Shown: piece by piece, positions 1-61,273 of the stretch
How the letters are laid out: every line of letters begins with the position of its first letter
Position numbering within the stretch: position 1 is the stretch's first letter
DNA from: Tsukamurella tyrosinosolvens
GTDB lineage: Bacteria; Actinomycetota; Actinomycetes; Mycobacteriales; Mycobacteriaceae
Reading direction: 5' to 3'
Assembly: GCF_900104775.1 (NCBI RefSeq)
Contig: NZ_FNSA01000003.1
Span: 3,534,001-3,598,000, forward strand
DNA: 64,000 nucleotides
Position numbers and translations under genes: made by a program
Notes under the pieces: model-generated
Databases searched by the model: none
Told to the model about the DNA's origin: nothing
The model's input: the letters and a program-made list of their open reading frames with translations, nothing else

Positions 1-512
1 GTGAGTAACGGAACGAGTTCTCGCGTCGTCACCAGGTCGTGGATCTCCGGAACATACGCTCGCCGTGCCTGTTTCGCCGCGGATCGGGCGACCGCGCGCC
101 AGCGGGCGACCCCCTTCTCCGCCTTGCCGGAGCCCTTGCCCCCGGAGCCGCCCCCGTCCCATCGCGAGACGCAGCGCGACGCCTGCCACGGGACGATCGC
201 GTCGATCCCCGCCTCGGTGGCGAGCTCGACGGCCAGTTCGGAACGATCGGACTTGGGCAGCGCCTGCACCAGCACCACGCGGGGCGAGGCGGGCGGCACG
301 GTCCAGGTCTCGGCGCAGCGCACCGTCACGTCAGCCTTGCCGACGGCGGTCGCGGTGCACCGGGCGAAGCCGCCGGCACCGTCGGACAGGACGAGCTCCT
401 CGCCCGCTCGGACGCGCCGCACCGCCGCGGCGTGCCGGCCCTCGTCGCCGGCGAGGAGGTACTCCTCCCCCGGCGCGGGCAGCGACTCCGCGAGGAAGAC
501 GGTGGCCGCCAC
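1..512 (-). CDS. rsmE: 16S rRNA (uracil1498-N3)-methyltransferase RsmE, 3' end cut by window
   Basis: Translation from a GTG at 512 gives VAATVFLAESLPAPGEEYLL..., then GRHAAAVRRVRAGEELVLSDGAG and PPASPRVVLVQALPKSDRSE, followed by ELATEAGIDAIVPWQASRCVS. This is the N-terminal PUA-like domain and the start of the SPOUT methyltransferase domain of RsmE, which methylates U1498 of 16S rRNA with SAM. About 170 residues are present; the C-terminal part with the SAM-binding knot lies beyond position 1. It begins only 6 bases after the dnaJ stop, so it is the third gene of the hrcA-dnaJ-rsmE operon. The GTG follows CCGCAG, a weak ribosome site, so the exact start is less sure than the identity. Confidence 0.9.
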   Translation of the reverse strand, partial: MAATVFLAESLPAPGEEYLLAGDEGRHAAAVRRVRAGEELVLSDGAGGFARCTATAVGKADVTVRCAETWTVPPASPRVVLVQALPKSDRSELAVELATEAGIDAIVPWQASRCVSRWDGGGSGGKGSGKAEKGVARWRAVARSAAKQARRAYVPEIHDLVTTRELVPLL

Positions 513-518
513 CTGCGG

Positions 519-1685
519 CTACCGTCCGGCGAAGGTGTCGCGCAGGCGGGAGAAGATGCCGCCGCCCTGGTCCTGGCCGCCGCGGCGCGCGGCGTGCGGG
601 CCCTCGCCCGGGAACAGCGCCTTGAGCTCGCGCAGCTTCTCGGTCTGCTTCTTGTCCAGCCGCGACGGGATCGCGACGTCGAAGTGCACGACGAGGTTGC
701 CGCGCACCTGCGAGTTGACCTGCGGCATGCCGTGGCCGCGCAGCACCGTGGTGTCGCCGGTCTGGGTGCCCGGGGGCACCTCCACCGTGAGCTCGCCGTC
801 GATGACGGTGGGCACGGTGACCTCGGCGCCCAGTGCCGCGTCGAACATCGGGACCCGCGCGGTGACGTGCAGCGTGCTGCCGTCGCGGGTCAGGTACTCG
901 TGCTCGCTCTCGGTGACCTCGACGTAGAGGTCGCCGGCGGGGCCGCCGCCGGGGCCGACCTCGCCCTGCCCCGCCAGCCGCACGCGCATCCCGTCGCCGA
1001 CGCCGGCGGGGATCTTCACGGTGAGGTTGCGGCGCGTGCGGACGCGGCCGTCGCCGCTGCACTTGCTGCAGGGGTTCTCGATGACCTCGCCGACGCCCGA
1101 GCACGTGGGGCACGGCCGGGACGTCATGACCTGGCCCAGGAAGGACCGCTGCACCGACTGCACCTCGCCCTGGCCGTGGCAGGTGGGGCACGTCGACGGC
1201 TTGCTGTCGCCCTCGGTACCGGCGCCCTGGCACTTGTCGCACAGGACCGCGGTGTCGACGGTCAGCTCGCGGCTGACGCCGTTCGCGCACTCGTCGAGGT
1301 CCAGCTCCATACGGATCAGCGCGTCGTTGCCCTCGCGGACCCGGCCGCGGGGGCCGCGTCCTCCGCCGCCCATGCCGCCGCCGAAGAAGGCCTCGAAGAC
1401 GTCGCCCAGGCCGCCACCGCCGAAGCCGCTGAATCCGCCGCCGCCGAAGCCGCCGCCGCCCGGCGCGCTGTCGAGCGGGTCGCCGCCCATGTCCACGACG
1501 CGCCGCTTCTCGGGGTCGCTGAGCACCTCGTAGGCGTCGGAGACGTCGCGGAACTTCTCCTGCGCCGCCTCGTCGGGGTTCACATCGGGGTGCAGCTCGC
1601 GGGCCAGCTTGCGGTACGCGCGCTTGATCTCCTGGTCGGAGGCCTTCGAATCGACCCCGAGGATGCGGTAGTAATCACGTGCCAC
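519..1685 (-). CDS. dnaJ: Chaperone DnaJ (DnaJ2 type)
   Basis: 388 residues. Hsp40 co-chaperone that delivers substrates to DnaK and stimulates its ATPase. J domain at residues 1-65 with the HPD triad at 32-34 (ELHPDVNP), Gly/Phe-rich linker at about 75-115, then four CxxCxGxG zinc motifs between residues 149 and 213 ([32 protein letters not shown]), and the C-terminal substrate-binding domain. The GTG at 1685 was chosen because it gives the standard start [11 protein letters not shown] and follows GAGGGA nine bases upstream. It lies 135 bases downstream of hrcA on the same strand, the usual hrcA-dnaJ2 pairing in actinobacteria, so it is probably under HrcA control. Confidence 0.97.
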
Positions 1686-1820
1686 TGCGGCGAATCCCTC
1701 TAACGTATGGACGACAATCAGCGGACCTGCTCGGACCGCGCTCAACCCATGATTCCACCACAGGGGCGATTCGGACCATTCGCGCTGGTCACCCCGCCGC
1801 GAATCATGCGCGGACGAGCA

Positions 1821-2855
1821 TCAGCGCTCCCCCAGGACCTCGCCCACGTACCGTGCGACCGCCGCGACGGAGGCGATCGTGCCGGGGTAGTCCATGCGGG
1901 TGGGGCCCAGTACGCCGACGCCGCCGAAGATCGCGCCGGGCGCGCCGTAGCCGGTGGAGATCACCGACGCGCCACGCAGGTTCTCGTCCTGAGTCTCCGA
2001 GCCGATCGCGACCGACACCGTGCCCGGCTGCTGCCGCGCCGTGAGCAGCTTGAGGACCACCACCTGCTCCTCCAGCGTCTCGAGCACGCTGCGCAGGGAG
2101 CCGGAGACCGCGTCGAAGTCGGCGGCGTTGCGGGTGAGGTTCGCGGTGCCGCCGAGCACCAGTCGGTCGTCCGCGCGCTCGACGAGGGTCTCGACCAGCA
2201 CCGTCGACACCCGGATCACCGCGTCGCGCAGATCGCGCGGTGCGAGCGGCGCCAGGTCCGCGACGCCCATCGAGGCGTCGGGGATGAGCTTGCCGTGCAC
2301 CGCGGCGCCGAACAGTTCGCGCAGCCGGGAGAGGTCCTCGTCGGAGACCGGACCGCCGAGCTCGACGAGGCGCTGCTCGACGCGGCCCGAGTCGAGGATC
2401 ACTACGAGGAGCAGCCGGGACGGGGCCAGCGCCACCACCTCGAGGTGCCGCACCCGCGCGGAGCTGATCACCGGGTACTGGATGACCGCGACCTGCCGCG
2501 TCAGCTGGGCCAGGAGCCGCACGGAGCGCTGCAGCACGTCGTCGAGGTCGACGCCGGTCTCCAGGAACTGGAGGATGGCGCGCCGCTCGGCGGAGGAGAG
2601 CGGCTTGATCTGCGCGATCCGGTCGACGAACTGCCGGTACCCCTTCTCGGTGGGGATGCGCCCCGAGCTGGTGTGCTGCTGCGTGATGTAGCCCTCGGCC
2701 TCGAGGACCGCCATGTCGTTGCGCACCGTCGCGCTGGAGACGCCGAGCTGGTGCCGGTCCACCAGGGCCTTCGATCCCACGGGCTCGTGGGTCTCGACGT
2801 AGTCGGCCACGATCGCCCGGAGCACCTCGAAGCGCCGGTCCTCCGTCGTCGACAT
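1821..2855 (-). CDS. hrcA: Heat-inducible transcription repressor HrcA
   Basis: 344 residues. Represses heat-shock genes by binding CIRCE operators. The N-terminal winged helix is recognisable ([59 protein letters not shown]), followed by the GAF-like dimer domain and the conserved C-terminal end ([25 protein letters not shown]). The ATG at 2855 is preceded by AGGAGAAAGGA at proper spacing. I could not find a clear CIRCE element (TTAGCACTC-N9-GAGTGCTAA) upstream of hrcA, so autoregulation is not shown by this sequence. It heads the hrcA-dnaJ-rsmE gene set. Confidence 0.97.
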
Positions 2856-3281: not shown

Positions 3282-3911
3282 ATGTCGCGCACCATCCGCC
3301 TGACCGGGTCCGGCATCGCCACCGCGACCCCCGACGTCGTCATCGCCCGGATCGGCGTGGAGTTCCGCGCGGCCGACGTGTCGACGGCCTTCTCCGGCGC
3401 CGGCGAGGCGGCGCACGCGGTGGTCGCCGCCGTCCGCGGGGCCGGGGTGGCGGACGGCGACGTCGCGACGTCGAACCTGGGGCTGCAGGCCGTCGAGACG
3501 GGCCCGTGGGAGGACCGCCGGTTGGAGGGCTACGCCGCCAGCGAGTCGCTCACCGTCACCATCCGCACCGTCGGCGACGCCGCCGCGGTGCTGCAGGCGG
3601 CCGCGGCGGCCGCGGGCGATGCGGCCCGGATCCAGTCCGTCACCTTCGCGCTGTCCGACGGTGCCGCCCCCGCCGCCGCGGCACGCGAGGCCGCGTTCAC
3701 CGATGCGAAGGCGCAGGCCGAGCAGTACGCCGCGCTGTCCGGCGACGCCCTCGGCGCCGTGCTCTCGATCGCCGATGACGGGTCCGGACCACGCACCGAG
3801 GTGCACTTCGCCGCGAAGGCGCTCGGCTCGGCGGCGCCCGCGGGCCCGGCCCTCGAGCCGGGCGAGAAGACCGTCACGGCACGGGTCACCGTCGAATGGG
3901 AGTTGGTGTAA
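3282..3911 (+). CDS. SIMPL domain-containing protein (DUF541), cytoplasmic form
   Basis: 209 residues, whole length matching the SIMPL/DUF541 fold: [19 protein letters not shown] at the start (the GxGxxxxxPD signature), alternating beta strands and Ala-rich helices, [11 protein letters not shown] in the middle, and [14 protein letters not shown] at the end. Family members include periplasmic BP26/OMP28-like proteins and E. coli YggE, linked to oxidative stress; biochemical function is unknown. No signal peptide. It starts 12 bases after the previous gene, so the two are probably co-transcribed. The next gene encodes a lipoprotein paralogue, so this is a tandem pair with one member inside and one outside the membrane. 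Confidence 0.88.
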
Positions 3912-4740: not shown

Positions 4741-5913
4741 TCAGCCCAGGATGCGGCGCACCACCCCGTCGGCCAGGAGTCGCCCGGCGTCGGTGAGCAC
4801 GTAGGCGTCACGCGCCCGGTCCAGGTTCCCGACGGCGACCTCGTCCTCGGCCCGGGAGGCCTCGTCGGGCCGGAGCACAGCGAGCGGGATGCCGGACCGC
4901 ATGCGCACGCGCAGCATCACGTCCTCGACGTGACGGTCCTCGTCGGTGAGCACCTCGTGGCCCGCGATCGGCAGCGCCCCGCCCGCCACGGCGTCGGCGT
5001 ACCGGGCGGGGTGCTTGACGTTCCACACCCGTGTCCCGGCGACGTGGCCGTGCGCGCCGGGCCCGGCGCCCCACCAGTTCGCGCCCTCCCAGTACAGCTC
5101 GTTGTGCCGGCACCGGCCCGCCTCCGAGCGTGCCCAGTTCGACACCTCGTACCAGTCGAAGCCCGCGTCCCGCAGGGCCCCGTCGAGCATCTCGTAGCGG
5201 TGCGCCAGCACGTCGTCGTCGGTGTCGGGGAGCTCGCCGCGGCGGATCCGCCGGGCCAGCGCGGTGCCGTCCTCGACGATGAGCGCGTAGGCGGAGACGT
5301 GGTCGACGCCGGCGTCGAGCACCGCGTCGAGCGAGGCCCGCAGGTCGTCGTCGGACTCCCCGGGCGTGCCGTAGATCAGGTCCAGGTTGACGTGGTCGAA
5401 GCCCGCGGCGCGCGCCTCCTTCGCCGCGGCCACCGCCCGCCCGGGTGTGTGCGTGCGGTCCAGCACGCGCAGCACGTGCGCCGCGGCCGACTGCATGCCG
5501 AGGGAGATCCGGGTGAAGCCCGCCTCCCGCAGCCGCGCGAAGAACTCCGGCGAGGTCGACTCGGGGTTCGACTCGGTGGTCACCTCCGCGTCGTCGGCGA
5601 AGGTGAAGTGCCGGCGGGCCGTGTCGAGGAGGGCGGCGAGGCCGTCGCCGCCCAGGAGCGACGGGGTGCCGCCGCCCACGAACACCGTCGACACGGGGAC
5701 GTCGCCGAGCGCGCGACGGGCCAGGGCCAGCTCGCCGTCGATCGCCTCGGCCCACGCCTGCGGCGAGGTCGATGCACCCAGCTCGCCGGCGGTGTAGGTG
5801 TTGAAGTCGCAGTAGCCGCAGCGCGTCGCGCAGAACGGAACGTGCAGGTACAGCCCGAACGGTGACGCGGCACCGTCGAGCCGGCTGAGCTCTGGGGTCG
5901 AGGGCGCGGGCAC
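4741..5913 (-). CDS. hemW: Radical SAM heme chaperone HemW
   Basis: 390 residues. Radical SAM protein of the HemN/HemW group, placed with HemW: it has [21 protein letters not shown] near residue 20, with the CxxxCxxC motif for the 4Fe-4S cluster, and the family signatures [19 protein letters not shown] and [11 protein letters not shown]. It lacks the N-terminal extension of true coproporphyrinogen dehydrogenases. HemW is thought to insert heme into respiratory enzymes. The GTG at 5913 gives [19 protein letters not shown]..., the usual length; the open frame upstream (to 6051) overlaps the leader peptide of the next operon and is not family-like. CAGACT six bases before the GTG may be a leaderless -10. 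Confidence 0.93.
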
Positions 5914-7895: not shown

Positions 7896-8614
7896 CGGCA
7901 CCGTCGAACCCCCTGACCGGACGCGACGCGGACGAGCTCCGCGCCCTCGCGGAGCGCGCGTCGAAGGAGTTGGAGGGCGCCGACCCGCTCACCCTGCTGC
8001 GGTGGACGCTGGACACCTTCGGCGAGGACTTCGTCGTCGCGTCGAACATGCAGGACGGGGTGCTGGTGCACCTCGCCAAGCAGGTGCAGGAGCGGCCGAA
8101 GGTCCTGTTCCTCGACACCGGCTACCACTTCCCCGAGACGATCGGCATGCGCGACGCGGTCGAGTCGATCTACGAGGTGGAGCTGCTGAACGTGACGCCC
8201 GCGCAGAGCGTCGGCGAGCAGGACGCGACCGTCGGCAAGGACCTGTTCGCGACCGACCCGGCGCAGTGCTGCAACCTGCGCAAGGTCGTGCCGCTGCGCG
8301 AGACCCTGTCGGGCTACCGCGCCTGGGTCACCGGTATCCGCCGCGTCGAGTCGCCCACTCGCGCGAACGCGCCCTTCATCTCCTTCGACGAGGGCTTCGG
8401 CCTGCTCAAGGTCAACCCCATCGTCGACTGGTCCGACGAGCAGATGCAGCGGTTCATCGAGGAAAACGGCATCCTGGTGAACCCGCTGGTCGACGAGGGC
8501 TACCCGTCGATCGGCTGCCAGCCCTGCACCAACAAGCCCGCCCCGGGTTCCGATCCTCGAAGCGGCCGCTGGGCCGGTTCGACCAAGACAGAATGCGGAC
8601 TGCACGCCTCATGA
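7892..8614 (+). CDS. cysH: Adenylylsulfate (APS) reductase CysH
   Basis: 240 residues. Reduces activated sulfate to sulfite. It has the Cys pair at 126-127 (QCCNLRK) and the second pair C209/C212 (GCQPC). These bind the 4Fe-4S cluster typical of APS reductases rather than PAPS reductases of the E. coli type. The catalytic Cys235 is in the C-terminal TECGLH motif. The PP-loop ATPase fold carries FLDTGYHFPET. ATGA overlap with sir upstream and with cysD downstream indicates translational coupling. The cluster ligands, together with a CysN that lacks APS kinase, suggest APS is the substrate. Confidence 0.96.
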   Translation: MTAPSNPLTGRDADELRALAERASKELEGADPLTLLRWTLDTFGEDFVVASNMQDGVLVHLAKQVQERPKVLFLDTGYHFPETIGMRDAVESIYEVELLNVTPAQSVGEQDATVGKDLFATDPAQCCNLRKVVPLRETLSGYRAWVTGIRRVESPTRANAPFISFDEGFGLLKVNPIVDWSDEQMQRFIEENGILVNPLVDEGYPSIGCQPCTNKPAPGSDPRSGRWAGSTKTECGLHAS

Positions 8615-9552
8615 CCATCACAGAGCCCACGGAGCCGATCGTGTCCACTGGCGACCCCACGGAGTTCAGCACGCTCGACGCGCTGGAGTCCGAGGCCATC
8701 CACATCTTCCGCGAGGTCGCGGGCGAGTTCGAGCGCCCCGTCATCCTGTTCTCGGGCGGCAAGGACTCGACGGTGCTGCTGCACCTCGCGGTGAAGGCCT
8801 TCTGGCCGGCGCCGCTCCCCTTCGCACTGCTGCACGTGGACACCGGCCACAACCTGCCCGAGGTGCTGGACTTCCGCGACCGGATGGTCGAGAAGTACAA
8901 CCTGCGGCTGCACGTCGCGAAGGTCGAGGACTACCTCGCCGACGGCCGGCTCGAGGAGCGGGCCGACGGGATCCGCAACCCGCTGCAGACGGTGCCGCTG
9001 CTCGACGCCATCTCCGAGAACCGGTTCGACGCCGTCTTCGGCGGCGGCCGCCGCGACGAGGAGCGGGCCCGCGCCAAGGAGCGGATCTTCTCGCTGCGCA
9101 ACGCCTTCGGCCAGTGGGACCCGAAGCGGCAGCGCCCCGAGCTGTGGAACCTGTACAACGGCCGGCACGCGCCGGGCGAGCACGTGCGCGTGTTCCCGAT
9201 CAGCAACTTCACCGAGCTGGACATCTGGCGCTACATCGCCCGCGAGGACATCGAGCTGGCCTCGATCTACTACGCGCACGAGCGCGAGGTCTACTCGCGC
9301 GACGGGATGCTGATGACCTCCGGCGTGTGGGGCGGCCCGCGCGAGGGCGAGGAGGTGCGGACGCTGTCGGTGCGGTACCGCACGGTGGGCGACGGCTCCA
9401 CCACCGGCGCGATCGAGTCCACCGCGTCGAACAACGAGCAGATCATGGCCGAGGTCGCCGCGTCGCGCCTCACCGAGCGCGGCGCCACCCGCGGCGACGA
9501 CCGCGTCTCCGAGGCCGCGATGGAAGACCGCAAGAAGGAAGGCTACTTCTGA
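8611..9552 (+). CDS. cysD: Sulfate adenylyltransferase subunit 2 (CysD)
   Basis: 313 residues. Catalytic subunit of ATP sulfurylase, which makes APS from ATP and sulfate. The PP-loop is SGGKDSTVLLHLAVKAF. Family signatures include HVDTGHNLPEVLDFRD, VFGGGRRDEERARAKERIFS, HVRVFPISNFTELDIWRYI and the C-terminal RKKEGYF. The ATG at 8611 overlaps the cysH stop (ATGA); an in-frame ATG at 8593 is possible but would extend the overlap. The stop overlaps the cysN start (TGATG). Confidence 0.97.
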   Translation: MTITEPTEPIVSTGDPTEFSTLDALESEAIHIFREVAGEFERPVILFSGGKDSTVLLHLAVKAFWPAPLPFALLHVDTGHNLPEVLDFRDRMVEKYNLRLHVAKVEDYLADGRLEERADGIRNPLQTVPLLDAISENRFDAVFGGGRRDEERARAKERIFSLRNAFGQWDPKRQRPELWNLYNGRHAPGEHVRVFPISNFTELDIWRYIAREDIELASIYYAHEREVYSRDGMLMTSGVWGGPREGEEVRTLSVRYRTVGDGSTTGAIESTASNNEQIMAEVAASRLTERGATRGDDRVSEAAMEDRKKEGYF

Positions 9553-10829
9553 TGAGCAGCGCCCCCGCCCTCCTGCGTCTCGCCACCGCGGGTTCCGTCG
9601 ACGACGGCAAGTCCACCCTCGTCGGGCGCCTGCTCTACGACACGAAGTCGGTGCTCGCCGACCAGATCGACGCCGTCACCCGCGCGTCGGTCGACAAGGG
9701 CCTCGACACCCCGGACCTGTCGCTGCTGGTCGACGGCCTGCGCGCCGAGCGCGAGCAGGGCATCACCATCGACGTGGCCTACCGCTACTTCGCGACGCCC
9801 AACCGGTCCTTCATCCTCGCCGACACCCCCGGTCACGTGCAGTACACCCGCAACACGGTGTCCGGCGCCTCGACCGCGCAGGTCGTGATCCTGCTGACCG
9901 ATGCGCGCAAGGGCGTCATCGAGCAGACCCGCCGGCACGCCGCGGTGCTGTCGCTGCTGGGCGTGCCGCGCCTGGTGCTCGCGGTGAACAAGATCGACCT
10001 GGTCGAGGACCCGGCGTCGGTCTTCCAGGAGATCTCCGCGGAGTTCCGCGCGCTGACGGGCTCGCTGGGCTGGGCCGACGACGCCGTCCATGCGATCCCC
10101 GTTTCGGCGCTGCACGGCGACAACGTCGCGTCGCGCTCGGACCAGACGCCGTACTACGACGGCCCGTCGCTCATCGAGCACCTGGAGTCGATCCCGACGG
10201 ATCCCGACACGAAGCCGATCGGGTTCCGCTTCCCGGTGCAGTACGTGATCCGCCCCCGTACCCCCGAGTACCCCGATTACCGCGGCTACGCCGGTCAGGT
10301 GGCCGCGGGCACCGTCGACGTGGGCGACGAGGTGCTCGTGCTCCCCGCCGGCACCCGGAGCCGGGTCGAGCGCATCGACACCCCCGACGGCGCGCTCGCC
10401 TCCGCGCACACCGGGCGCTCGGTGACGGTCGTGCTCGCGGACGACGTGGACGTGAGCCGCGGCGACCTGATCGTCTCCGCCGCCGACGCCCCCGAGCCGC
10501 GCCAGCAGTTCGAGGCCACGGTGTGCTGGCTGGCCGAGAAGCCGCTGCGCATCGGCGCGCGGCTGCTGCTCAAGCACGGCACCAAGACGACGCAGGCGAT
10601 CGTCGGCGGGCTGGACGCGGTGTTCGACGAGCAGAACCTCACCGTCGGCGAGGGCACCACGCTGGAGCTGAACCAGATCGGCCGGATCTCGATCCAGACC
10701 GCGGAGCCGATCGTCGCGGACGACTACGACAAGAACCGGGAGATGGGCTCGTTCCTGCTCATCGATCCCGCCGGCGGCAACACCCTCGCCGCGGGCCTGG
10801 TCGGGAACGCCCTGTCCCACCTGGTCTGA
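9552..10829 (+). CDS. cysN: Sulfate adenylyltransferase subunit 1 (CysN), GTPase
   Basis: 425 residues. GTPase that drives APS synthesis with CysD. G motifs: GSVDDGKST (G1), DTPGHVQYTRN (G3) and NKIDL (G4), followed by EF-Tu-like domains 2 and 3. It ends at VGNALSHLV, whereas M. tuberculosis CysNC continues about 190 residues with an APS kinase domain; that domain is absent and no cysC lies in the window. So PAPS, if made at all, must come from a gene elsewhere. It overlaps cysD by one base and is followed by a strong hairpin. Confidence 0.96.
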   Translation: MSSAPALLRLATAGSVDDGKSTLVGRLLYDTKSVLADQIDAVTRASVDKGLDTPDLSLLVDGLRAEREQGITIDVAYRYFATPNRSFILADTPGHVQYTRNTVSGASTAQVVILLTDARKGVIEQTRRHAAVLSLLGVPRLVLAVNKIDLVEDPASVFQEISAEFRALTGSLGWADDAVHAIPVSALHGDNVASRSDQTPYYDGPSLIEHLESIPTDPDTKPIGFRFPVQYVIRPRTPEYPDYRGYAGQVAAGTVDVGDEVLVLPAGTRSRVERIDTPDGALASAHTGRSVTVVLADDVDVSRGDLIVSAADAPEPRQQFEATVCWLAEKPLRIGARLLLKHGTKTTQAIVGGLDAVFDEQNLTVGEGTTLELNQIGRISIQTAEPIVADDYDKNREMGSFLLIDPAGGNTLAAGLVGNALSHLV

Positions 10830-34815: not shown

Positions 34816-34844
34816 CCCGCGGCGCGGCCCCGGGAGGACCCGCG

Positions 34845-34870: not shown

Positions 34871-34872
34871 CA

Positions 34873-36771
<1,899 letters not shown>

Positions 36772-50618: not shown

Positions 50619-52263
50619 GGACCTCCTCTCGTGCCTGCTGTTGCTGTTGGTCCTGCGAGCTGAGCTCGGGCCCGAGCTCCACCTGCTGCTGCTCGGCGAG
50701 GTCCCGGCTCGGGACCACCTCCACGCCTTCGAGTTCCGCCTCGGCGGCCGACGACCGGGCCGCGAGCACCCAGGTGTCCTTGGAGCCGCCGCCCTGGCTC
50801 GAGTTCACGACGAGCGAGCCCTCGGGCAGCGCGACGCGGGTGAGGCCGCCGGGCAGCACCCACACGTCGTCGCCGTCGTTGACCGCGAACGGCCGCAGGT
50901 CGACGTGCCGCGGGCGAGCCTGCTCGCCGATCTTGGTGGGCACCGTCGACAGCTGCATGACCGGCTGCGCGATCCAGCCGCGCGGATCGGCGACGACCTT
51001 GCGGCGCATCGTCGCGAGCTCCTTCTCGCTCGCGTCGGGGCCGAAGACGATGCCGTAGCCGCCGGAGCCCTCGACGGGCTTGATCACCAGCTCGTCGATC
51101 CGGTCGAGCACCTCCTCCCGCTCGTCGTCGAGCCAGCAGCGCAGGGTGTCGACGTTCTGCAGCATCGGCTTCTCGCCGAGGTAGTAGTCGATGATGTCGG
51201 GGACGTACGTGTAGGTCAGCTTGTCGTCCGCGACGCCGTTGCCGACCGCGGAGCTGATCACGACGTTGCCCGCGCGGGCGGCGTTGAGCAGGCCCGCGAC
51301 GCCGAGCACCGAGTTGGGGAGGAACTGCATCGGGTCGAGGAACTCGTCGTCGATGCGGCGGTAGATCACGTCGACCTGCTGCTCACCGCTCGTCGTGCGC
51401 ATGTAGACCACGTTGTCGCGGCAGAAGAGGTCGCGGCCCTCGACCAGCTCGACGCCCATCTGCCGGGCGAGCAGCGAGTGCTCGAAGTACGCCGAGTTCG
51501 CCATGCCCGGGGTGAGCACGACCACCGTGGGGTCGGCCTCGTTGGAGGCGGCGGAGCGGCGCAGCGCGCGCAGCAGGTGGGAGCTGTAGTCGGCGACGGC
51601 GCGCACGCGGTGCCGCTGGAACAGGTCCGGGAAGACCTGTGCCATCGTCCGGCGGTTCTCCATGACGTAACTCACGCCCGACGGGGACCGCAGGTTGTCC
51701 TCGAGGACGCGGAAGGTGCCCTCCGCATCGCGGATGAGGTCGATGCCCGCGACGTGGATGCGCACGCCGTTGGGCGGCCGGATGCCCGCGGCCTGCCGGT
51801 GGAAGTGGGCGCAGGAGGTGACCAGCCGCTTCGGCACGACGCCGTCGCGCAGGATCTCCTGCTCCGAGTAGATGTCGTCGAGGAACATCTCCAGCGCCTG
51901 CACGCGCTGCTTGATGCCCTTCTCCAGGCGGTTCCACTCCGCGGCGGCGATGACCCGCGGCACCAGGTCGAGTGGGAACGGCCGCTCACGACCCTCCAGC
52001 GAGAAGGTGATGCCCTGGTCGATGAAGGCGGCGCCGAGGGCGTCGACGCGGGCCGCCAGGTCCGACTCGTCGGCCGAGGAGAGGGCGCCGAAGATCCGCT
52101 TGTACGGGGTGCGGACGGTGCCGTCGTCGGCGAACATCTCGTCGAACGCCCGCCCGAACGACGGTGCGTCGTCGTAGCCCCCGAAGAGGGGCGCCTCGTC
52201 GGACAAGCGGGGGGCGGCGGCCTGCTTCCGGGTCGCGGACTTGGCCTGTTTCTGCGGGGTCAC
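50602..52263 (-). CDS. Circularly permuted type 2 ATP-grasp protein (DUF404/DUF407)
   Basis: 553 residues. Signatures: [88 protein letters not shown] and the ATP-binding [22 protein letters not shown]-grasp enzymes join a carboxylate to an amine; comparative genomics links this type to an unidentified peptide or protein modification. GTG at 52263 has CACGAT six bases upstream. The C terminus is Gln/Glu-rich ([16 protein letters not shown]). First gene of the operon with alpha-E and transglutaminase. Confidence 0.93.
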
Positions 52264-52824: not shown

Positions 52825-53826
52825 TCAGCCCGCGAGCGTGGCGACCCTGCGGACCGCGATCTCCAGCGCGTAGTCCGGATCCGCCGCCTGGCCCTTCACG
52901 TCGGCGTTGGCCGCGGCGACGGCCTGCAGCGCCCCGGCGACGTTCTCGGCACGCCACCGTCGCGCGACCTGCGTCATCTTCTTCACCTTCCACGGCGCCA
53001 TGCCCAGCTCCCCCGCGTCCCGGTACTGATCGGGGGTGCGGCCGAGGCCGCGGATGCGCGCGACGGAGTGCACCGCGTCCGCGAGCGCGTCGGCGATGAG
53101 CACGTGCGGCGTACCGCGGTGCTGGGCCCACCGCAGGGCCTCCAGCGCCGCCGCGACCTGCCCGGCGACGGCCTTGTCGGCGATCTCGAATCCGGTGACC
53201 TCGGCGCGGCCCGCGTAGTAGCGGTGCACCGCGGCAAGGTCGACGCGGCCGCCCGTGTCGGCGACGAGTTGCGCGATCGCCGCGGCGAGCTCGCGCAGGT
53301 CCTTGCCCACGGAGTCCACCAGCAGGTCCACCAGCTCGTCGGAGACGCGCACCTTCTGCGCCCGGAACTCGGACTTGGCGAAGTCCGCGCGGTCGCGCGC
53401 GGACGTGATGGTGGGCACCTCGACCAGCTCCGCGCCGGCCTTCTTCAGTGCGGCGACCATCGACTTCGCCCGGCCGCCGCCGCTGTGCTCGATCACGAGG
53501 GTGATGCCGTCCGGCGGGTTCTTCGCCGCCTCGACGATCAGATCGACCGGGGCCTTACCGGCCTCGCCCGCGGACTCGAGGACGACGATGCGCTCCTCGG
53601 CGAACAGCGACGGGCTCAGCAGCTCCACGAGCTCGGACTGGTCGACGTCGCCGGCGCGGATCCGGGTGACCGGCACGGCGTCACCCGCGCCGCCCGGCAG
53701 CCCCATGCCCCCGTCTCCTGCGGCCGTGCGCGCCGACTCGACGATCGCCGAGACCGCCCGCTCCACCAGGAGGCCCTCGGTCCCCACCACCACGTGTACG
53801 CGCGCGCTGTCCACCACGGCTCCCAT
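52825..53826 (-). CDS. holA: DNA polymerase III subunit delta
   Basis: 333 residues. Clamp-loader subunit. Signatures: VHVVVGTEGLLVERAVSAIV, RIRAGDVDQSELVELLSPSLFAEERIVVLESAGEAGK, VIEHSGGGRAKSMV, VGKDLRELAAAIAQLVADTGGRVDLAAVHRYYAGRAEVTGFEIADKAV. The ATG at 53826 (MGAVVDSARVHVVVG) and a GTG at 53817 are both possible; AAGTAT seven bases before the GTG is a weak -10. In either case the 5' end lies inside the 3' part of comEC (see finding). Confidence 0.94.
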   Translation of the reverse strand: MGAVVDSARVHVVVGTEGLLVERAVSAIVESARTAAGDGGMGLPGGAGDAVPVTRIRAGDVDQSELVELLSPSLFAEERIVVLESAGEAGKAPVDLIVEAAKNPPDGITLVIEHSGGGRAKSMVAALKKAGAELVEVPTITSARDRADFAKSEFRAQKVRVSDELVDLLVDSVGKDLRELAAAIAQLVADTGGRVDLAAVHRYYAGRAEVTGFEIADKAVAGQVAAALEALRWAQHRGTPHVLIADALADAVHSVARIRGLGRTPDQYRDAGELGMAPWKVKKMTQVARRWRAENVAGALQAVAAANADVKGQAADPDYALEIAVRRVATLAG

Positions 53827-55294
53827 ACTTCCAGACCCCACCGACGACGACGCACGCCACGACGAGCGCGACGCCCGTGCCCGCGCCACCCGGCACGGCG
53901 ACGACGCCGATCCGCGCGCACCACCGCGCGACCGCGATCACCCACCACAGCTCCGGCCCCGTCGCCCGCACCGCCAGCGCTGCGGCCGGGGCCGCGATCG
54001 GGGCCGCCACGGCGGCGAGGGTCCCCACGACCGTGATGACCGGGATCACCGGCCCGGCCAGCAGGTTCGCCGCCACCCCGCCCAGCGGCACGCGGCCCGA
54101 GAAGGCGATGACGAGCGGCAGCGTCACCACCTGAGCGACCAGTGTGACCGCGAGCAGGCCGGCGAGGGTGTCCGGCACCCGCGACGCGACCAGGCGGTCG
54201 CGGACCACGGGCGACCACAGCACCAGCCCGGCCGTCGCCGCCACCGAGAGCGCGAAGCCGATGTCGCGGGCCAGCGCCGGCCGCACCAGCATCAGCACGA
54301 TGACCGCCGCGAACAGGGCGACGAGCGGCTGCCGGCCGCGCCGCAACGCCAGCGCGGCCACCCCGACGAGCCCCATCACCGCGGCCCGCACCACCGATCC
54401 GGTCGGACCCACCAACCCGACGAAGGCGACGATCGCCACCGTCGTCACCGCGGCCCGCGCCGCGAGCGGCAGGCCCGCCGCCGCGCACAGCCCGAGCACG
54501 CACAGCGCGATGATCGCGAAGTTGGCGCCGCTCACCGCCGTCAGGTGGGTGAGGCCGGAGTCCTGGAAGTCGCCGCGCACCGTCGGTAGCGTCGCGGACT
54601 CGTCGCCCAGCACGAGTGCGGGCAGGAGCCCTGCCGCGTCGACCGGCAGCGCCTCAGCGGCCACCGCCGCCAGCGCGCGACGGACCGCCGCGGCCGCCCG
54701 GAAGTACGGCGGCGCGCGGCTGAGCACCGTCGGCTCCCCCGACCCGACGAGCACTGCGGCCACGAGGCCCGGCCGCGTGCTCCGCAGCACCGTCGCGCGG
54801 ATCGAGACCGTCTCGCCGGGCACGAGGCCGCCGAGGTCCTGCGTCGCGCCGAGGAGGAGCACTCCCCCGCGCGCGGGCACGACGGCATCGGTTCCAACCG
54901 CCAGGGCCGTCGCGGGCACGAGGACCCGCGAGGCGTCGAGGTGCCCGCCCGGATCGCCGGAGCGCTGCCGCGGCCACTCGTCGACCTCGAGCACCACCTC
55001 GACCGCGCCCGCGCCGTCGAAGTCGGCGATCGCGGCGCGTTCCCGGTCGTGCACGCGCACGGCGACCGAGGCGGCGACGCCCGCGCCCAACCCCGCCGCG
55101 GCGGCCACCACCAGGCACACCGCCTGCGCCAGCGGCCGTGGATCGCGCCGCCGGAACACCGCGGCGCCCACCGCCACCGCCGCCAGCCCCGCCGTCACCC
55201 ACCACGCCGCGGCGGCGGAGTTCAGGGCGACCGCGGCGGCCGCCCAGCAGGCGATAGCCGCCGGGAGCAGCCGCAGGTCGAGCCGCTCGTGCAC
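53681..55294 (-). CDS. comEC: ComEC/Rec2 competence-type membrane protein
   Basis: 537 residues. Multi-pass competence domain: GLTHLTAVSGANFAIIALCVLGLCAAAGLP and GPTGSVVRAAVMGLVGVAALALRRGRQPLVALFAAVIVLML. It has the N-terminal OB-like part but no metallo-beta-lactamase domain, as in the short mycobacterial form. The membrane part ends near VVACVVVGGVWKYGSR. The last ~45 residues (GGQRARTRGGGDRGPPGGAGG...) are read from DNA that also encodes the start of HolA in another frame. ComEC forms the DNA uptake channel in competent bacteria; uptake in this group is not shown. Confidence 0.9.
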   Translation of the reverse strand: MHERLDLRLLPAAIACWAAAAVALNSAAAAWWVTAGLAAVAVGAAVFRRRDPRPLAQAVCLVVAAAAGLGAGVAASVAVRVHDRERAAIADFDGAGAVEVVLEVDEWPRQRSGDPGGHLDASRVLVPATALAVGTDAVVPARGGVLLLGATQDLGGLVPGETVSIRATVLRSTRPGLVAAVLVGSGEPTVLSRAPPYFRAAAAVRRALAAVAAEALPVDAAGLLPALVLGDESATLPTVRGDFQDSGLTHLTAVSGANFAIIALCVLGLCAAAGLPLAARAAVTTVAIVAFVGLVGPTGSVVRAAVMGLVGVAALALRRGRQPLVALFAAVIVLMLVRPALARDIGFALSVAATAGLVLWSPVVRDRLVASRVPDTLAGLLAVTLVAQVVTLPLVIAFSGRVPLGGVAANLLAGPVIPVITVVGTLAAVAAPIAAPAAALAVRATGPELWWVIAVARWCARIGVVAVPGGAGTGVALVVACVVVGGVWKYGSRGGQRARTRGGGDRGPPGGAGGLGDRRVGAHGRRRRGHGAAGRRG

Positions 55295-55295: not shown

Positions 55296-56243
55296 TCACA
55301 CCGTGGCCATCGGCTTGATCTTGGCGAGCTTCGCGTCCCCGATCCCGCTCACCTTCCCGAGGTCGTCGACGGTGCGGAAGGGCCCGTTCTTGTCGCGGTA
55401 GGCGATGATCGCGGCGGCGGTCGCCGCGCCGACGCCGGGGAGCCGGTCGAGCTCCGTCGCGCTCGCGGTGTTGATGTTCACAGTGCCCGTCGCAGTCGCT
55501 GTTCCTCCAGCCGCGCCCGAGCCGGGCGTCGGCGTTGCCGCCGCCGCGGACCCCGAGCGCACCGAGCTGCGCAACGTCACCCCCGCCTTCGCGTCCACCA
55601 CGCCGACGACCACCTGATCACCGTCGCGCAGGGGCTGCGCCAGGTTCAGGCTCGCGGTGTCGGCACCGCCGAGCGCCCCGCGGGCCGCGGTCAGCGCGTC
55701 GGCCACCCGCGCGCCGGGCCGCAACCGGTGCAGCCCCGGCGCCCGGACCAGACCGACCACCGCCACCACCAGCTCCGACGGTGCCGCGCTCGGCCCGGGC
55801 GCGGCACCGGACCCCGCCGGCGCCGACGACGAGCCCGCCGACGACACGGTCGGCTCCACCGACGCCGACGCGCCCGCGAAATCGACCACCGGATACTGCC
55901 CGCCGCCCTCGCGCGACGGTCCGAGCACCGCCACCGCCGCCACGACGGCGGCGATCACGCCCACCACGACGAGTGCCACCGCGGCGCGCGGTGTGGTCCT
56001 GACCTTCTCGACCGTGGAGCGCCACCCCGTCGGCTCCTGGTCGTCCCAGAAATCGTCGTCCTCCATCCGCACCCGTCGCGACGGCGCGCCCCCGCCGTCG
56101 AACGCGGCTCCGCCGTCGACCGCGTCGCCGTCCCGGCCACCGTCGCCCCGGACGGGCGCGAACTCCTCGAGCCACGCCGGCCGCGCGAAGATCTGCTCCT
56201 CCGCGACGCCGGTCCCGGCCACTGCCTCTCGTTCGCCGTTCAT
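55296..56243 (-). CDS. comEA: ComEA family helix-hairpin-helix DNA-binding protein
   Basis: 315 residues. Long polar N-terminal region (about 85 residues), one membrane anchor AVALVVVGVIAAVVAAVAVLG, Ser/Pro/Gly linker, SLBB domain (ELVVAVVGLVRAPGLHRLRPGARVADALTAARGALGGAD) and a C-terminal double helix-hairpin-helix (VNINTASATELDRLPGVGAATAAAIIAYRDKNGPFRTVDDLGKVSGIGDAKLAKI). Binds double-stranded DNA at the membrane. One base separates its stop from the comEC GTG. TAGGTT six bases before the ATG suggests a leaderless transcript. Confidence 0.94.
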   Translation of the reverse strand: MNGEREAVAGTGVAEEQIFARPAWLEEFAPVRGDGGRDGDAVDGGAAFDGGGAPSRRVRMEDDDFWDDQEPTGWRSTVEKVRTTPRAAVALVVVGVIAAVVAAVAVLGPSREGGGQYPVVDFAGASASVEPTVSSAGSSSAPAGSGAAPGPSAAPSELVVAVVGLVRAPGLHRLRPGARVADALTAARGALGGADTASLNLAQPLRDGDQVVVGVVDAKAGVTLRSSVRSGSAAAATPTPGSGAAGGTATATGTVNINTASATELDRLPGVGAATAAAIIAYRDKNGPFRTVDDLGKVSGIGDAKLAKIKPMATV

Positions 56244-56368: not shown

Positions 56369-57223
56369 CTAGGCCGGATCCGCGCCGTCGACCAGCGCCG
56401 GAGCGACCGCGACGCCCACCGCGCCGGGGCCGAGATGCGCCGCGATCGTGCCGCCGAACGGGCCGATCACCAGCTCCTGGAGCTGCGGGAACTCCTCCTC
56501 GACCAGGGCGGCCACGTGCTCGGCCGCCTCCGGCGCCTCGACGTGGTGCACGGCGACCCGCGCGGGCCGGTTCCCCAGGTGCTGCGAGGCGAGCGCCGCG
56601 AGCTGATCGCGGGCGCGGGAGACCGTGCGGGTCTTGCGCTCGGAGACGATCCGGCCGTCCTGCAGCCGCAGCACCGGCACGATCTGCAGGGCGCCGCCGA
56701 GCAGCTTCGCCAGGGCGCTCACCCGGCCGCCGGCCCGCAGATGATCCAGTGTCGCGACACAGAAGAAGCCCTCGGCACCGTCGAGTACCTGGCGCGCGGC
56801 CTCGGCGACCTCGTCGGCGGACGCCCCGGCACGGGCGAGCCGCGCGGCCTCGAGCACGCCGAAGCCCATCGCCATGTCGATGCAGCGCGAGTCGACCACG
56901 GTGATCCCCGCGTCCATGAGCGCCGCCTGCGCCACGGCGGTCGAGTACGTGGAGCTCAGGTGCGAGCTCATCGTGATCACCACGACCCCGTCGCCGTCGG
57001 CCTCGGCGACCGCGGCGGCGAGCACCTCGCGGACCTCGCCGACCGACGGGCCGGACGTGGTCACGCCCTCCTTGACGAACCGGTCCGCCTGATAGCCGGT
57101 GCCGTAGTCGATGTACTCGCTCTCGCCCGACAGCACGTGCAGCGGCAGGATGCGGATGCCCATGTCGGCGACCCGCTCGGGCGCGATCGCGGCCGACGCA
57201 TCGGTCACCACGACGACGCTCAT
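56369..57223 (-). CDS. DegV family fatty-acid-binding protein
   Basis: 284 residues. DegV fold: VVVVTDASAAIAPERVADMGIRILPLHVL (TDS-like motif), VVITMSSHLSSTYSTAVAQAAL (fatty-acid carboxylate-binding Ser), VVDSRCIDMAMGFGVLEAARLA and FFCVATLDHLRAGGRVSALAKLLGGALQIVPVL. Related FakB proteins present fatty acids to the kinase FakA; no fakA is nearby. The ATG overlaps the octT stop (ATGA), so it is the last gene of nadD-rsfS-gpgP-octT-degV. Confidence 0.93.
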   Translation of the reverse strand: MSVVVVTDASAAIAPERVADMGIRILPLHVLSGESEYIDYGTGYQADRFVKEGVTTSGPSVGEVREVLAAAVAEADGDGVVVITMSSHLSSTYSTAVAQAALMDAGITVVDSRCIDMAMGFGVLEAARLARAGASADEVAEAARQVLDGAEGFFCVATLDHLRAGGRVSALAKLLGGALQIVPVLRLQDGRIVSERKTRTVSRARDQLAALASQHLGNRPARVAVHHVEAPEAAEHVAALVEEEFPQLQELVIGPFGGTIAAHLGPGAVGVAVAPALVDGADPA

Positions 57224-57945
57224 CGCGCACCCCCTTCATCGCGCAGCGCGCGCAGCACCCGCTGCGCCACCTGCTCGTGCATCTCGAACGACCAGTGGAT
57301 CCCGTCGATGTTATTGATCCCCAGGTCGAACGACCACTCGCACAGGTCACGCAGGGGGACGGTGGGCACGCCGGCACCGTCGGACCACTCCCGCATCGCC
57401 CGTCGCGTGCGCGCCCACCCGGGGTGCGCGAAGGAGTAGGCGAGCGCCCGGTGCGTGGGCGGCTCGAGCACGGCGATCGGCGCCTCCGGCCGCAGGGAGT
57501 GGAGCGAGTCGTAGGTCTTGCCGAGGTAGTCGACGGTGACCTTCGGCGGCAGCGCCATCGGCCAGCCCACCGGCGAGAAGACCCTCTGGATCGTGGCGTA
57601 GCCGTCGCGGGCGCGGGCGCGCAGCGACGCGGGGCGCAGGTAGCGGATCTGCTCGCGAATCGCGGTCGGCAGCGGCGAGGGCAGCGAATCCATGCCACCG
57701 AGTGCCAGCACCGCCGCCTCGACGGTCGGCACGGCCGCCCAGACGCGGGGGTCCTGCGTCACGCACCACCAGCCGTCGCGCGTGGTCCACCCGACGCGGG
57801 CGAACAGCTCGCAGCGCAGCCCCAGCTCCGCGGCCACCAGGTTGGGCCAGATCCGCGGATCGGAGGTCGGCAGCGCACCCTCGGGCCCGTAGAAGCCCAG
57901 GGAGTCGCTGAGCACCAGGAGCGTGCCGGTCGGGGAATCGCTCAC
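57220..57945 (-). CDS. octT: Glucosylglycerate octanoyltransferase (OctT), SGNH fold
   Basis: 241 residues. SGNH-hydrolase-type fold: LLVLSDSLGFYGPEGALPTSDPRIWPNLVAAELG (GDSL-like block with DS), AAVLALGGMDSLPSPLP (block III) and DGIHWSFEMHEQVAQRV (catalytic Asp/His block). The orthologue in mycobacteria (Rv2418c) adds octanoate to (di)glucosylglycerate, an early step in methylglucose lipopolysaccharide synthesis. It overlaps gpgP (GTGA), which makes the substrate's precursor, which supports the call. Confidence 0.87.
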   Translation of the reverse strand: MSDSPTGTLLVLSDSLGFYGPEGALPTSDPRIWPNLVAAELGLRCELFARVGWTTRDGWWCVTQDPRVWAAVPTVEAAVLALGGMDSLPSPLPTAIREQIRYLRPASLRARARDGYATIQRVFSPVGWPMALPPKVTVDYLGKTYDSLHSLRPEAPIAVLEPPTHRALAYSFAHPGWARTRRAMREWSDGAGVPTVPLRDLCEWSFDLGINNIDGIHWSFEMHEQVAQRVLRALRDEGGAR

Positions 57946-58649
57946 TGGACCTCGGGGGCGGGCCGGGTCGAGGAGTCGAGGTCCGAGGAGGCGTTCCACA
58001 CGTCGAGCCGCCACCGCGTCGCGTCTCCGTGCGCGGAGAGTTGTACCCAGCTGCAGTTGCCGAGGCCGCCGAGGACCGGCCAATGGTCGACGGGCAGGTC
58101 CAGAAGCCGGGCGGTCAGGGCCGCGATCAGTCCGCCGTGCGCGACCAGGATCACGGGCCGCTCGCTCGAGCCCCATTCGGAGAGCCGCTCGCTGAGCTCC
58201 GTCACCAGAGGGTACGACCGCGCGGCCACATCCACCCGGGCCTCCCCGCCGGGCGGCGCCCACTCGGGAGCGTCGCGCCACCGTCGGCGTGCGCCGGGCA
58301 TGTACGCGTCGACTTCGTGGTGGGTCATGCCCTGCCAGTCGCCCAGCATGGTCTCCCGCAGCCGGACATCGGTCTCGACTGTGCCGCCGGTCACCGCCGC
58401 GAGCGCGTCCGCGGTGTCGCGGGCGCGGCGCAGGTCGGAGCTGACGATGGCGATGGGGTCGCGGTCGCCGAGCGCGTCGGCGGCCGCGGCGGCCTGCCGC
58501 CGCCCCAGGTCGGTGAGGTCGGTGTCGAGCTGGCCCTGCATGCGGCCCTCGGCGTTCGACGCGGTCTGGCCGTGCCGGAGCAGGATGAGCCGGCGCACCG
58601 TCGGGGTCAGGCGCTCGACCGACGAGTCGAGCCCGTCCTCCACGTGCAT
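57942..58649 (-). CDS. gpgP: Glucosyl-3-phosphoglycerate phosphatase (GpgP), histidine phosphatase
   Basis: 235 residues. Histidine phosphatase signature LILLRHGQTASNAEGRMQGQLDTDLTDLGRRQA (catalytic His near residue 24), SSDLRRARDTADAL, LRETMLGDWQG and the second His in LVAHGGLIAALT. In mycobacteria the gene at this place (Rv2419c) removes phosphate from glucosyl-3-phosphoglycerate. The ATG at 58649 overlaps the rsfS stop by one base. Confidence 0.88.
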   Translation of the reverse strand: MHVEDGLDSSVERLTPTVRRLILLRHGQTASNAEGRMQGQLDTDLTDLGRRQAAAAADALGDRDPIAIVSSDLRRARDTADALAAVTGGTVETDVRLRETMLGDWQGMTHHEVDAYMPGARRRWRDAPEWAPPGGEARVDVAARSYPLVTELSERLSEWGSSERPVILVAHGGLIAALTARLLDLPVDHWPVLGGLGNCSWVQLSAHGDATRWRLDVWNASSDLDSSTRPAPEVQ

Positions 58650-59733: not shown

Positions 59734-59741
59734 AACGGACC

Positions 59742-59747
59742 ATCCTA
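59742..59747 (-). promoter_or_regulatory. -10 element upstream of nadD
   Basis: TAGGAT on the minus strand, eight bases before the ATG at 59733. Confidence 0.5.
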
Positions 59748-59764
59748 TGCACCCCGCCGCCGGG

Positions 59765-61273
59765 TCAGACCGGCAGCAGGCGCCCGATGACCTCGGCCAG
59801 CTGCCCCGCGGTGCGGCACTCGTACATGTCGATGAGCCGCCCGTACTTGTCCGCGACCGAATCGCCCGTCCCCCACGACGCCCTGCGCTCGGGGTTGAGC
59901 CAGAACGCGTGCCGCGCCTTGTCGACGAGCTCGTCGAGCTCCGCGAGCGCGGGATCGGTGTGGTTGGACCGGGCGTCGCCGAGGATGAGCAGCGTGCCGC
60001 GGTGCGTGACCGCGTCGGGGAAGTCGCGGACGAACGTGCGCAGCACGTTCCCGTAGTCGGAGCCGCCGAACCGCGCGACGTTGGTCTCCCGGATCACCCG
60101 GTCGAACATGTCCACGACGGTGTCGACGGTGAGCGTCCGCGACGGGTCGATGTAGTCGGTGATCTCGTCCACCGAGTCGACGAAGCCGAACACCCGGATC
60201 TTGGAGAACTCCGCGCTGAGCGCGTGCGTGAGCAGCAGCGTGAAGTTGGAGAAGCCCGCGACGGAGCCGGAGAGGTCGCACAGCAGCACGAGCTCGGGCT
60301 TGGTCGGCCGGGGTCGACGGTGCGCCAGATCGATCGGCACGCCGCCCGTCGACATCGACTTGCGCAGCGTGCGGCGCAGGTCGATGGGGCCGCGGCGGGC
60401 GCGGCGGCGCCGCACCAGCAGGCGCGTGGAGAGCTGCCGGGCCAGCGGCCGGACGGTCTGCTCCATGCGGTGCAGCTCGGTGCGGGTGGCGGCGAAGAAG
60501 GCGACGTTCTCCGGCAGCTGCGGCGCGGCGTACTGCGCGACGGCCTCGGGCCCCCGTCGGGCCGCCATGGCGACGGAGGTGAGCTCGGTGACCCGCTCAG
60601 TGAGCCCGGCGACGCGCGAGCGCGCGACCCGCCGGGCGGACTCGTACTCGAAGCTGCCGGGCGCGGCGCCCTCCTCGCCCGCTGCCGCGAGCAAGCCGTT
60701 GGCGATGGCGGCGATGAGCGTCTGCGGGTTGAGCGCCTTGAGCGCCTGGTACGACGAGAAGGCGGTGCCCGTGGCGGAGTTGTACTCGCCCAGCTGCTCG
60801 ACGATCTGGCTGGCGATCCCGTCGTGGTCGCCGCCTGCCACGAGCGCGGCGACGGCCTCCTGCCGCAGCGCCTCGCGGACCGCGTCCGGATCGGGCGGGG
60901 TGTCGGCGGCCGGCATCTTCAACGGGTCGACCTGGTCGGGCGCCTCCCCGGGCGCACCGGAGCAGCCCTCCCCGCCGGAACCGGAGGCACCGTCGGGCCC
61001 TGTCCCCGCGGCACCGAAGCCGCCGCGGACCGGGAAGTACAGGTCGAAGATGACGTCGAAGGTCTTGCGGTGCATCTGCTCGCGCAGCAGCACCGCGGCG
61101 AGGCCCTCGCGGAGCTGGCCGCGGTCGGTGAGGTCGAGCACTGTCAGCACCTCGGCGGCGGTGATCGCCTCGCCCGGGCCGATGGCCATGCCGCGCTCGC
61201 GGAGCGTCCGCACGAAGGCGTGCAGGTGCGTATCCAGAGGCGTGCCGGCGCCCGGATCCCGCACGGTGGTCAT
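59765..61273 (-). CDS. VWA domain-containing protein (CoxE-like)
   Basis: 502 residues. N-terminal helical region, a Gly/Pro-rich linker with repeated Cys and Ser (about residues 85-120), then the von Willebrand A domain ([39 protein letters not shown]) with the MIDAS motif DLSGS and the later [12 protein letters not shown] and [10 protein letters not shown]. Similar to CoxE and Rv2425c. VWA proteins of this type work with a MoxR ATPase as a metal- or protein-remodelling pair. Its ATG overlaps the MoxR stop (ATGA). Confidence 0.92.

Follow-up and report, generated by a model that had tools for sequence, protein, structure and literature searches.

A nine-base word in strong excess across most Tsukamurella genomes and its resemblance to DNA uptake sequences

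The 9-mer GCACCGTCG is dispersed in 50 exact copies, 31 on the plus and 19 on the minus strand, between positions 376 and 60995 of a 64,000-nucleotide stretch of Tsukamurella tyrosinosolvens (positions 3,534,001 to 3,598,000 of contig NZ_FNSA01000003.1, assembly GCF_900104775.1), hereafter the window. In this study we report that the excess of this word is real, specific and maintained, and that codons, composition and replication polarity do not account for it. High density of the word (0.43-0.82 per kb) is a trait of 14 of the 16 Tsukamurella genomes searched, while the two basal species resemble the outgroups. The word may be a tag for the recognition of self DNA of the kind of the DNA uptake sequences, a reading that is weighed below against its rivals.

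Abundance and codon-independent excess of the word

An earlier sequence-only reading of the window had counted 48 copies (30 plus, 18 minus) and estimated an excess of more than 20-fold. The abundance stands, with the figures amended to 50 copies (31/19), and the excess is reduced to about 11-fold against a dinucleotide shuffle of the window (mean of 4.6 copies and maximum of 9 in 100 shuffles). GCACCGTCG is the most frequent 9-mer of the window, the runner-up having 45 copies. The whole genome (G000; 5,281,118 bases in 4 contigs) holds 3,277 copies, or 0.62 per kb, balanced between the forward (1644) and reverse (1633) strands, and the reversed word used as a control appears only 42 and 41 times. 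The same reading had noticed that CACCGTCG is much rarer without the leading G. This agrees with the 50 of 80 occurrences of CACCGTCG in the window that are preceded by G, although forms beginning with A, C or T also reach about twice the null value.

The codon-aware tests were run on a genome sample of 40 stretches plus the window (0.86 Mb), in which a home-made gene caller found 803 genes (85% coverage), 795 of them used (0.73 Mb). It must be noted that the caller missed comEC, so that some copies described below as outside called genes are coding, three of them in the window. In the 795 genes the word occurred 473 times, compared with 82.6 under a within-gene synonymous codon shuffle (5.7-fold) and 116 when the shuffle also kept the context of wobble and next base (4.1-fold). 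It ranked first among 9-mers under both nulls. The top-ranked 9- to 11-mers mostly overlap GCACCGTCG, and unrelated 8-mers follow with lower scores, although under the context-keeping null a few other words stand out too, for instance CTCCCCCGC, CGGGGGAG and GATCACCA. The claim that codon use does not explain the excess therefore withstood both the codon-preserving nulls and the comparison with other 9-mers in the genome sample. Ranking of words with a high-order Markov model was discarded as misleading, given that GCACCGTCG inflates its own sub-words, and the codon shuffles were used instead.

Gene-borne copies in the sample were almost equally divided between sense (239) and antisense (234) orientations and fell in several frames. 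In the window the copies also fell in several frames, as the initial reading had indicated: 15 copies in antisense+2, 13 in sense+1, eight in antisense+1, six in sense+0 and four in sense+2, with four more outside called genes, three of which belong to comEC. Minor codons are chosen where they complete the word, which had also been claimed. The glycine codon GGT, with an overall use of 8.4%, reached 60.4% (168/278) in GAC GGN GC preceded by C, and 17% (8/46) where that C was missing. Likewise, the alanine codon GCA rose from 3.5% overall to 68.4% (80/117) before CCG TCG, and was found in 16% (5/32) of cases before CCG and another serine codon.

Footprint and conservation of the copies

The ratio of observed to expected occurrences fell with the number of mismatches, from 6.0 for the exact word to 1.46, 1.15, 1.07, 1.02 and 0.98 for one to five mismatches. 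Among the one-mismatch forms, those changed at positions 1, 2 (to A or G), 4 (to G or T) and 9 (to A or T) were enriched about 2-3-fold, and those at positions 6 and 7 about 1.3-1.6-fold. At position 3, the change to C gave 1.4-fold while G and T were not enriched; no form was enriched at position 8, and at position 5 none except C to T, with small numbers (7 vs 3.8). According to PMC1939737, a falling excess with mismatches is known for the uptake sequences of Haemophilus and Neisseria, and other over-represented words behave alike, so that the curve is not specific to uptake sequences.

The flanks from -2 to +3 were also constrained with respect to a frame-matched null: T was avoided at -2 and -1 and C at +1, while A was favoured at +2 and C strongly favoured at +3. 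Beyond +3 there was no clear constraint, and upstream position -7 also deviated. In the 63 copies lying wholly outside called genes, C or G (S) was present in 59/63 at -1 and in 59/63 at -2, A or G (R) in 52/63 at +1 and 47/63 at +2, and C in 32/63 at +3. The extended footprint is about SSGCACCGTCGRRC, and the word with its flanks thus resembles a protein recognition site of approximately 14 bp.

The window genes (55 tried) were aligned with orthologs in up to 14 species. When the amino acid was unchanged, codons with their third base inside a copy were identical in 970 of 1142 cases, compared with 756 predicted from the same codons elsewhere, and in the reverse direction in 812 of 886 cases vs 603. 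For five 9-mers used as controls, the ratio to expectation was 0.94-1.14. Synonymous change inside the copies is therefore approximately halved, and the comparison at orthologous positions proposed with the first reading spoke for maintenance of the word. Within 12 bp of copies shared by both species, divergence was 0.47 of expectation, a bin that is biased by the choice of shared copies.

Distribution in Tsukamurella and in mobile DNA

In a set of 151 genomes, the 16 Tsukamurella held 827-4002 copies and the 135 others 44-940. The least dense Tsukamurella genome (0.165 per kb) is level with the densest of the 135 others (about 0.17), and in 346 genomes across the phylum the top density outside the genus was around 0.27 per kb (G211). 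A tree of 17 proteins placed G006 and G007 as the basal Tsukamurella, followed by G009 and G012 and then by the remaining species. Along this tree the density was 0.17 and 0.27 per kb in G006 and G007, 0.43 and 0.48 in G009 and G012, and 0.52-0.82 in the rest. Given this rise from the basal species to the rest of the tree, the strong excess grew inside the genus.

Enrichment over codon shuffles followed a similar pattern, with 4.6-10.8-fold in nine sampled crown Tsukamurella, 3.1-fold in the basal G006 and G007 and 2.25-3.05-fold in five outgroup samples. A part of the excess (2-3-fold) is consequently not special to the T. tyrosinosolvens genome. The word was first or second among 9-mers in the crown Tsukamurella where it was ranked, and 45th-425th in four outgroup samples, the Nocardia sample being too small. 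In the basal species it was second in G007 and 14th in G006. A clear dialect of the word was sought in these two and only weak signs were found: CACCGTCG was about equally enriched with any first base in G007, and CAACGTCG was also enriched in G006.

The density was low in the mobile elements examined, phage TPA2 excepted. No copies were present in two 20-kb islands, L022 with a gene for a C5-methylase and L045 with a metal-type P-ATPase, where host density would give about 12 in each. The stretches retrieved from five elements borne by tadA had 19 copies in 162.8 kb (0.12 per kb). In plasmid pTpau01 (NC_014159) there were six copies in the first 50 kb, which carry several transposases and a relaxase, and 38 in the remaining 49.8 kb, which encode non-ribosomal peptide synthetases. 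The first 50 kb of Tsukamurella phages TIN2, TIN3 and TIN4 had 3, 2 and 2 copies, respectively, and neither TIN2 (3 vs 1.5 expected) nor TIN3 (2 vs 1.3) was enriched. Phage TPA2 carried 17 copies vs 3.9 expected, the word being third of the 4658 9-mers listed, while three related Gordonia phages (50 kb each) had 14 together vs 8.1 expected. All 17 copies of TPA2 were within its first 50 kb, with none in the last 11.4 kb.

Replication polarity and gene-end hairpins

The gene dnaA is in contig C1, and the terminus would lie near C3:2.3-2.65 Mb, provided that C1 and C3 form one circle. The proposed check of strand bias relative to origin and terminus revealed no replichore polarity, with 207 of 451 copies on one replication strand (p 0.09). 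Plus-strand copies were 131 of 274 to the left and 101 of 177 to the right of the putative terminus (Fisher p 0.067), and the strand ratio was homogeneous across the 35 stretches compared (p 0.64). Over the whole genome, perfect copies did not lie close together in pairs more often than expected.

The inverted near-copy after lepA that had been described is real. Directly 3' of the lepA stop and between convergent genes, a hairpin at 34844-34871 (fold of the stretch, -22.9 kcal/mol) consists of a copy of the word and a mirror copy with one mismatch at 34859-34867. In the genome sample, 14 of the 66 copies not fully contained in called genes had a mirrored partner no more than 40 bp away and with 0-1 mismatch, compared with 2.3 in a permuted control and with six direct near-copies. 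These copies form 12 mirrored pairs, 11 located 3' of a gene and seven between convergent genes, and the predicted fold, read by eye, pairs both copies in all except two (L013 and L032). Coding copies showed a weak mirror signal (46/473 vs 15.6, with 36 direct near-copies); the signal is clear only outside called genes, when no more than one mismatch is allowed. The mirrored pairs thus appear to sit in terminator-like hairpins more than expected by chance, with a putative role in termination.

Candidate uptake machinery

The presence of comEC and comEA in the window, already recognized from its open reading frames, was verified by Pfam matches. The first gene, a candidate DNA-translocation channel, is at 53681-55294 on the minus strand (Competence, E 1.9e-45), and the second, a candidate DNA receptor with SLBB and helix-hairpin-helix domains, at 55296-56222 on the same strand (HHH_3, E 1.1e-22; SLBB, 1.6e-8). 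Among named genomes, the eight nearest ComEA loci all belong to Tsukamurella.

The cluster tadA-tadB-tadC-flp-tadE-tadG is also present in Tsukamurella. A TadE Pfam search of the 16 genomes gave three weak matches, the model mostly missing the compact Flp/Tad cluster seen at L147. According to PMC4322843 and PMC12849477, Micrococcus luteus requires clusters of this type for natural transformation. This system belongs to the same phylum and shares with Tsukamurella the gene order and ComEA/ComEC; M. luteus needs two clusters, and a single one was examined in Tsukamurella. The term 'uptake sequence' has no occurrence in the main text of PMC4322843.

The tadA gene of G000, G004, G008, G010 and G013 is split around residue 322-326 into two pieces that lie 15-43 kb from each other; in G004 and G008 the second piece runs from residue 299-305, read across a stop. 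The coordinates in G000 are C3:4704368-4748328 (L173, L191-L193), and the other four are at L194-L200. A gene with the same starting residues adjoins the 3' piece in all five, while the cargo of the elements varies, and a phage-integrase domain was found by Pfam in the three full-length copies of this gene tested (G004, G008 and G013). In G007, tadA was found only up to residue 326. Moreover, flp is broken beside a serine recombinase gene in G009 (L179) and G010 (L180), at a different codon in each, and lacks a normal 5' end in G007 (L177). Conflict between mobile elements and transformation, and in another bacterium the disruption of comEC by transposable elements, are reported in PMC12637031 and PMC12955456. 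Circumstantially, the elements that disrupt the Tad locus fit a competence role for the cluster. Density did not differ significantly between the seven genomes with a split or broken Tad cluster and the eight with an intact one (0.52 vs 0.64 per kb, p 0.23), the intact class including G002 and G003, for which only tadA and flp matches were seen. An order-level relative, G108, also has a split tadA, with 47 kb between the two pieces.

Function of the word and alternative explanations

We give about even odds to the reading of GCACCGTCG as a tag like the DNA uptake sequences, by which self DNA is recognized and which molecular drive has spread. In that case, a part of the uptake machine that binds DNA (a minor pilin of the Flp/Tad pilus, ComEA or another receptor) would prefer DNA bearing the word, and the fragments would enter via ComEA/ComEC and recombine at the homologous place. 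Mutations creating or perfecting copies would spread, and those destroying copies would be replaced. Copies would build up on both strands, in frames tolerated by the proteins and in gene-end hairpins, displacing preferred codons, and chiefly in DNA that has long belonged to the genus. This implies that the word is read by a protein, that the reader is part of uptake and that Tsukamurella is, or formerly was, transformable.

Uptake sequences appear to be the best match among the known kinds of repeated word. The DNA uptake sequence (DUS) of Neisseriaceae and the uptake signal sequence (USS) of Pasteurellaceae are also short asymmetric 9-12-mers, with about one copy per one to two kb on both strands, clade-restricted, with an excess that falls with mismatches, mirrored hairpin pairs at gene ends and, as here in the mobile DNA examined, low density in such DNA. 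The density in Tsukamurella (0.17-0.82 per kb) is of the order of the known uptake sequences, and the actinobacterial envelope differs from that of the bacteria with DUS or USS. Of six features of uptake sequences that could be decided, five were found, the receptor type being the one that was not. The analogy that the sequence-only reading had drawn is thus favoured by the non-chance and non-codon nature of the word, its genus restriction, density, presence on both strands, mismatch curve, hairpins and conservation and by the uptake genes, and disfavoured by the type IV receptor, which was not found, and by the presence of ComEC in the whole order. PMC1939737 and PMC7811141 describe uptake sequences in Pasteurellaceae and Neisseriaceae, and according to PMC3630211 a ComP-type minor pilin is the DUS receptor in Neisseria.

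Several results weigh against a function in uptake. The strongest objection to reading the word purely as an uptake tag is the enrichment of phage TPA2, which is not predicted by uptake and sets the word apart from DUS and USS. A search for type IV prepilins (N_methyl) gave none in 15 of the 16 Tsukamurella, which rejects a type IV pilin, and hence a receptor of the ComP type, in these genomes. Of 61 relatives searched, 60 have ComEC and 59 a pilin of the Flp family; being order-wide, these do not explain the genus restriction of the word, and ComEC is rejected as the cause of that restriction. Seven of the 15 species with TadA, the strain of the window among them, have a split or broken Flp/Tad cluster. 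The spacing of the copies along the genome is random and not even, and no recombination footprint was seen, since divergence was 0.96-1.05 of expectation between 12 and 600 bp from the copies. A comparison of core and acquired genes had been suggested; among the window genes, the 40 widespread ones had 0.71 copies per kb, the 12 less widespread 1.26 and the three rare 0.60, so there was no sign of more copies in widespread than in less widespread genes. In the open-access literature no paper joined Tsukamurella and 'natural competence'. In addition, several of the supporting features are expected of any motif under drive or selection.

In the rival that survives best, the word is bound by an intracellular protein (a nucleoid, recombination or nuclease-protection protein, with a Chi-like but non-polar effect), to the slight benefit of any DNA resident in Tsukamurella. 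We consider it unlikely, while giving it more weight than any other alternative. The bounded footprint, the equality of strands and the local conservation are all in its favour, as are the enrichment of TPA2 but not of its Gordonia relatives and the 38 copies in the second half of pTpau01. The lack of enrichment in TIN2 and TIN3 and the absence of replichore polarity, unlike Chi of E. coli, speak against it. Chi of E. coli is polar relative to replication.

It is improbable that the word is made and kept by a DNA modification enzyme or by modification-dependent mismatch repair, as a counterpart of HIP1 (GCGATCGC) of cyanobacteria. Very many copies and restriction to a clade are common to both, and according to PMC4390886 HIP sequences are tied to methyltransferases and a repair model is proposed. 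The HIPs described there are palindromic, however, whereas GCACCGTCG has no dyad symmetry, and most of its one-mismatch forms (not those at positions 5 and 8) are over-represented, although conversion to the word would be expected to deplete them.

Ordinary codon-pair and composition bias is very improbable: the 2- to 3-fold excess in other genera and in basal Tsukamurella would fit it, but the higher enrichment of the nine crown species, the low ranks in the outgroups, the minor codons used to complete the word and the copies in several frames and outside genes do not. Finally, a polar chromosome signal (KOPS or SRS for FtsK, or a polar Chi) has a negligible probability, because despite a short, abundant and asymmetric word and a slight difference between chromosome halves the polarity is far too small and the stretches are homogeneous, which excludes KOPS and disfavours a Chi of the E. 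coli type.

Returning to the uptake tag, a more specific version is that it is read by a Flp/Tad-pilus machine instead of a type IV pilus, that it originated once the two basal species had branched off, and that integrative elements in conflict with the machine repeatedly disable it via tadA and flp. We hold this version tentatively, with somewhat less than even confidence. Among the matches listed in the open-access literature, which leaves most subscription papers outside, there was no report of an excess of GCACCGTCG or of an actinobacterial uptake sequence. As far as this search reached, a tag of this kind would be the first for self-DNA uptake in a Gram-positive or actinobacterial lineage. 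It would represent an independent origin in a distant phylum and point to a receptor type other than the known one, and the graded series of genomes, from background to strong excess, would allow its rise to be traced stepwise. Should the word have another role, something new probably reads it, given that it forces codon choice in most of the genus.

Positions of the copies and additional observations

Along the window, copies 1 to 11 of GCACCGTCG are at 376-384 (+, inside the RsmE-type gene at 3-512), 2198-2206 (+), 2723-2731 (+), 3565-3573 (+), 3656-3664 (-), 5870-5878 (+), 7898-7906 (+), 8768-8776 (-), 10309-10317 (+), 11170-11178 (+) and 11878-11886 (-). Copy 12, at 16523-16531 (+), is inside the trehalase/GH15 gene at 16388-18439 and is followed by copies at 16855-16863 (+), 16923-16931 (+), 17599-17607 (-), 18069-18077 (-), 18795-18803 (+), 21054-21062 (+) and 22500-22508 (-). 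Copy 20, at 22929-22937 (-), is inside the DUF222 gene at 22905-24806, and the next six are at 25442-25450 (-), 26962-26970 (-), 27510-27518 (+), 28838-28846 (+), 30474-30482 (+) and 34566-34574 (+). Copy 27, at 34848-34856 (-), is non-coding and forms the left arm of the lepA 3' hairpin, and copy 28, at 35177-35185 (+), is inside lepA itself. Then come 36858-36866 (+), 37247-37255 (+), 40801-40809 (-), 42853-42861 (+) and 43158-43166 (-), followed by copy 34 at 46367-46375 (-), inside the UvrA-like gene at 46284-48779, and by those at 47381-47389 (-), 47777-47785 (-), 48190-48198 (+), 48280-48288 (+), 50940-50948 (+) and 52159-52167 (-). Copies 41 to 43, at 54577-54585, 54724-54732 and 54787-54795 (all +), are inside comEC, and copies 44 and 45, at 55367-55375 and 55776-55784 (both -), inside comEA. 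The last five are at 56775-56783 (+), 57374-57382 (+), 58595-58603 (+), 60315-60323 (-) and 60987-60995 (+).

Two other words deviated in the sampled genes of G000: CTCCCCCGC was strongly over-represented (65 vs 14.6 under the context null) and CGCGCGCGC strongly depleted (82 vs 291). With respect to the database records, the T. tyrosinosolvens NCTC13231 'plasmids' NZ_LR134454, NZ_LR134456 and NZ_LR134460 appear to be pieces of the chromosome. The ComEA/ComEC region of the window is found on LR134460, and LR134456 matches a 20-kb stretch of contig C1, home of dnaA. The window matches a record of NCTC13231 with 100% identity over 22.6 kb. A contig filed under Kitasatospora arboriphila (L064) has the same match coordinates, identity and G+C as Williamsia muralis BULT 1.1 (L063) and is possibly mislabelled or contaminated.

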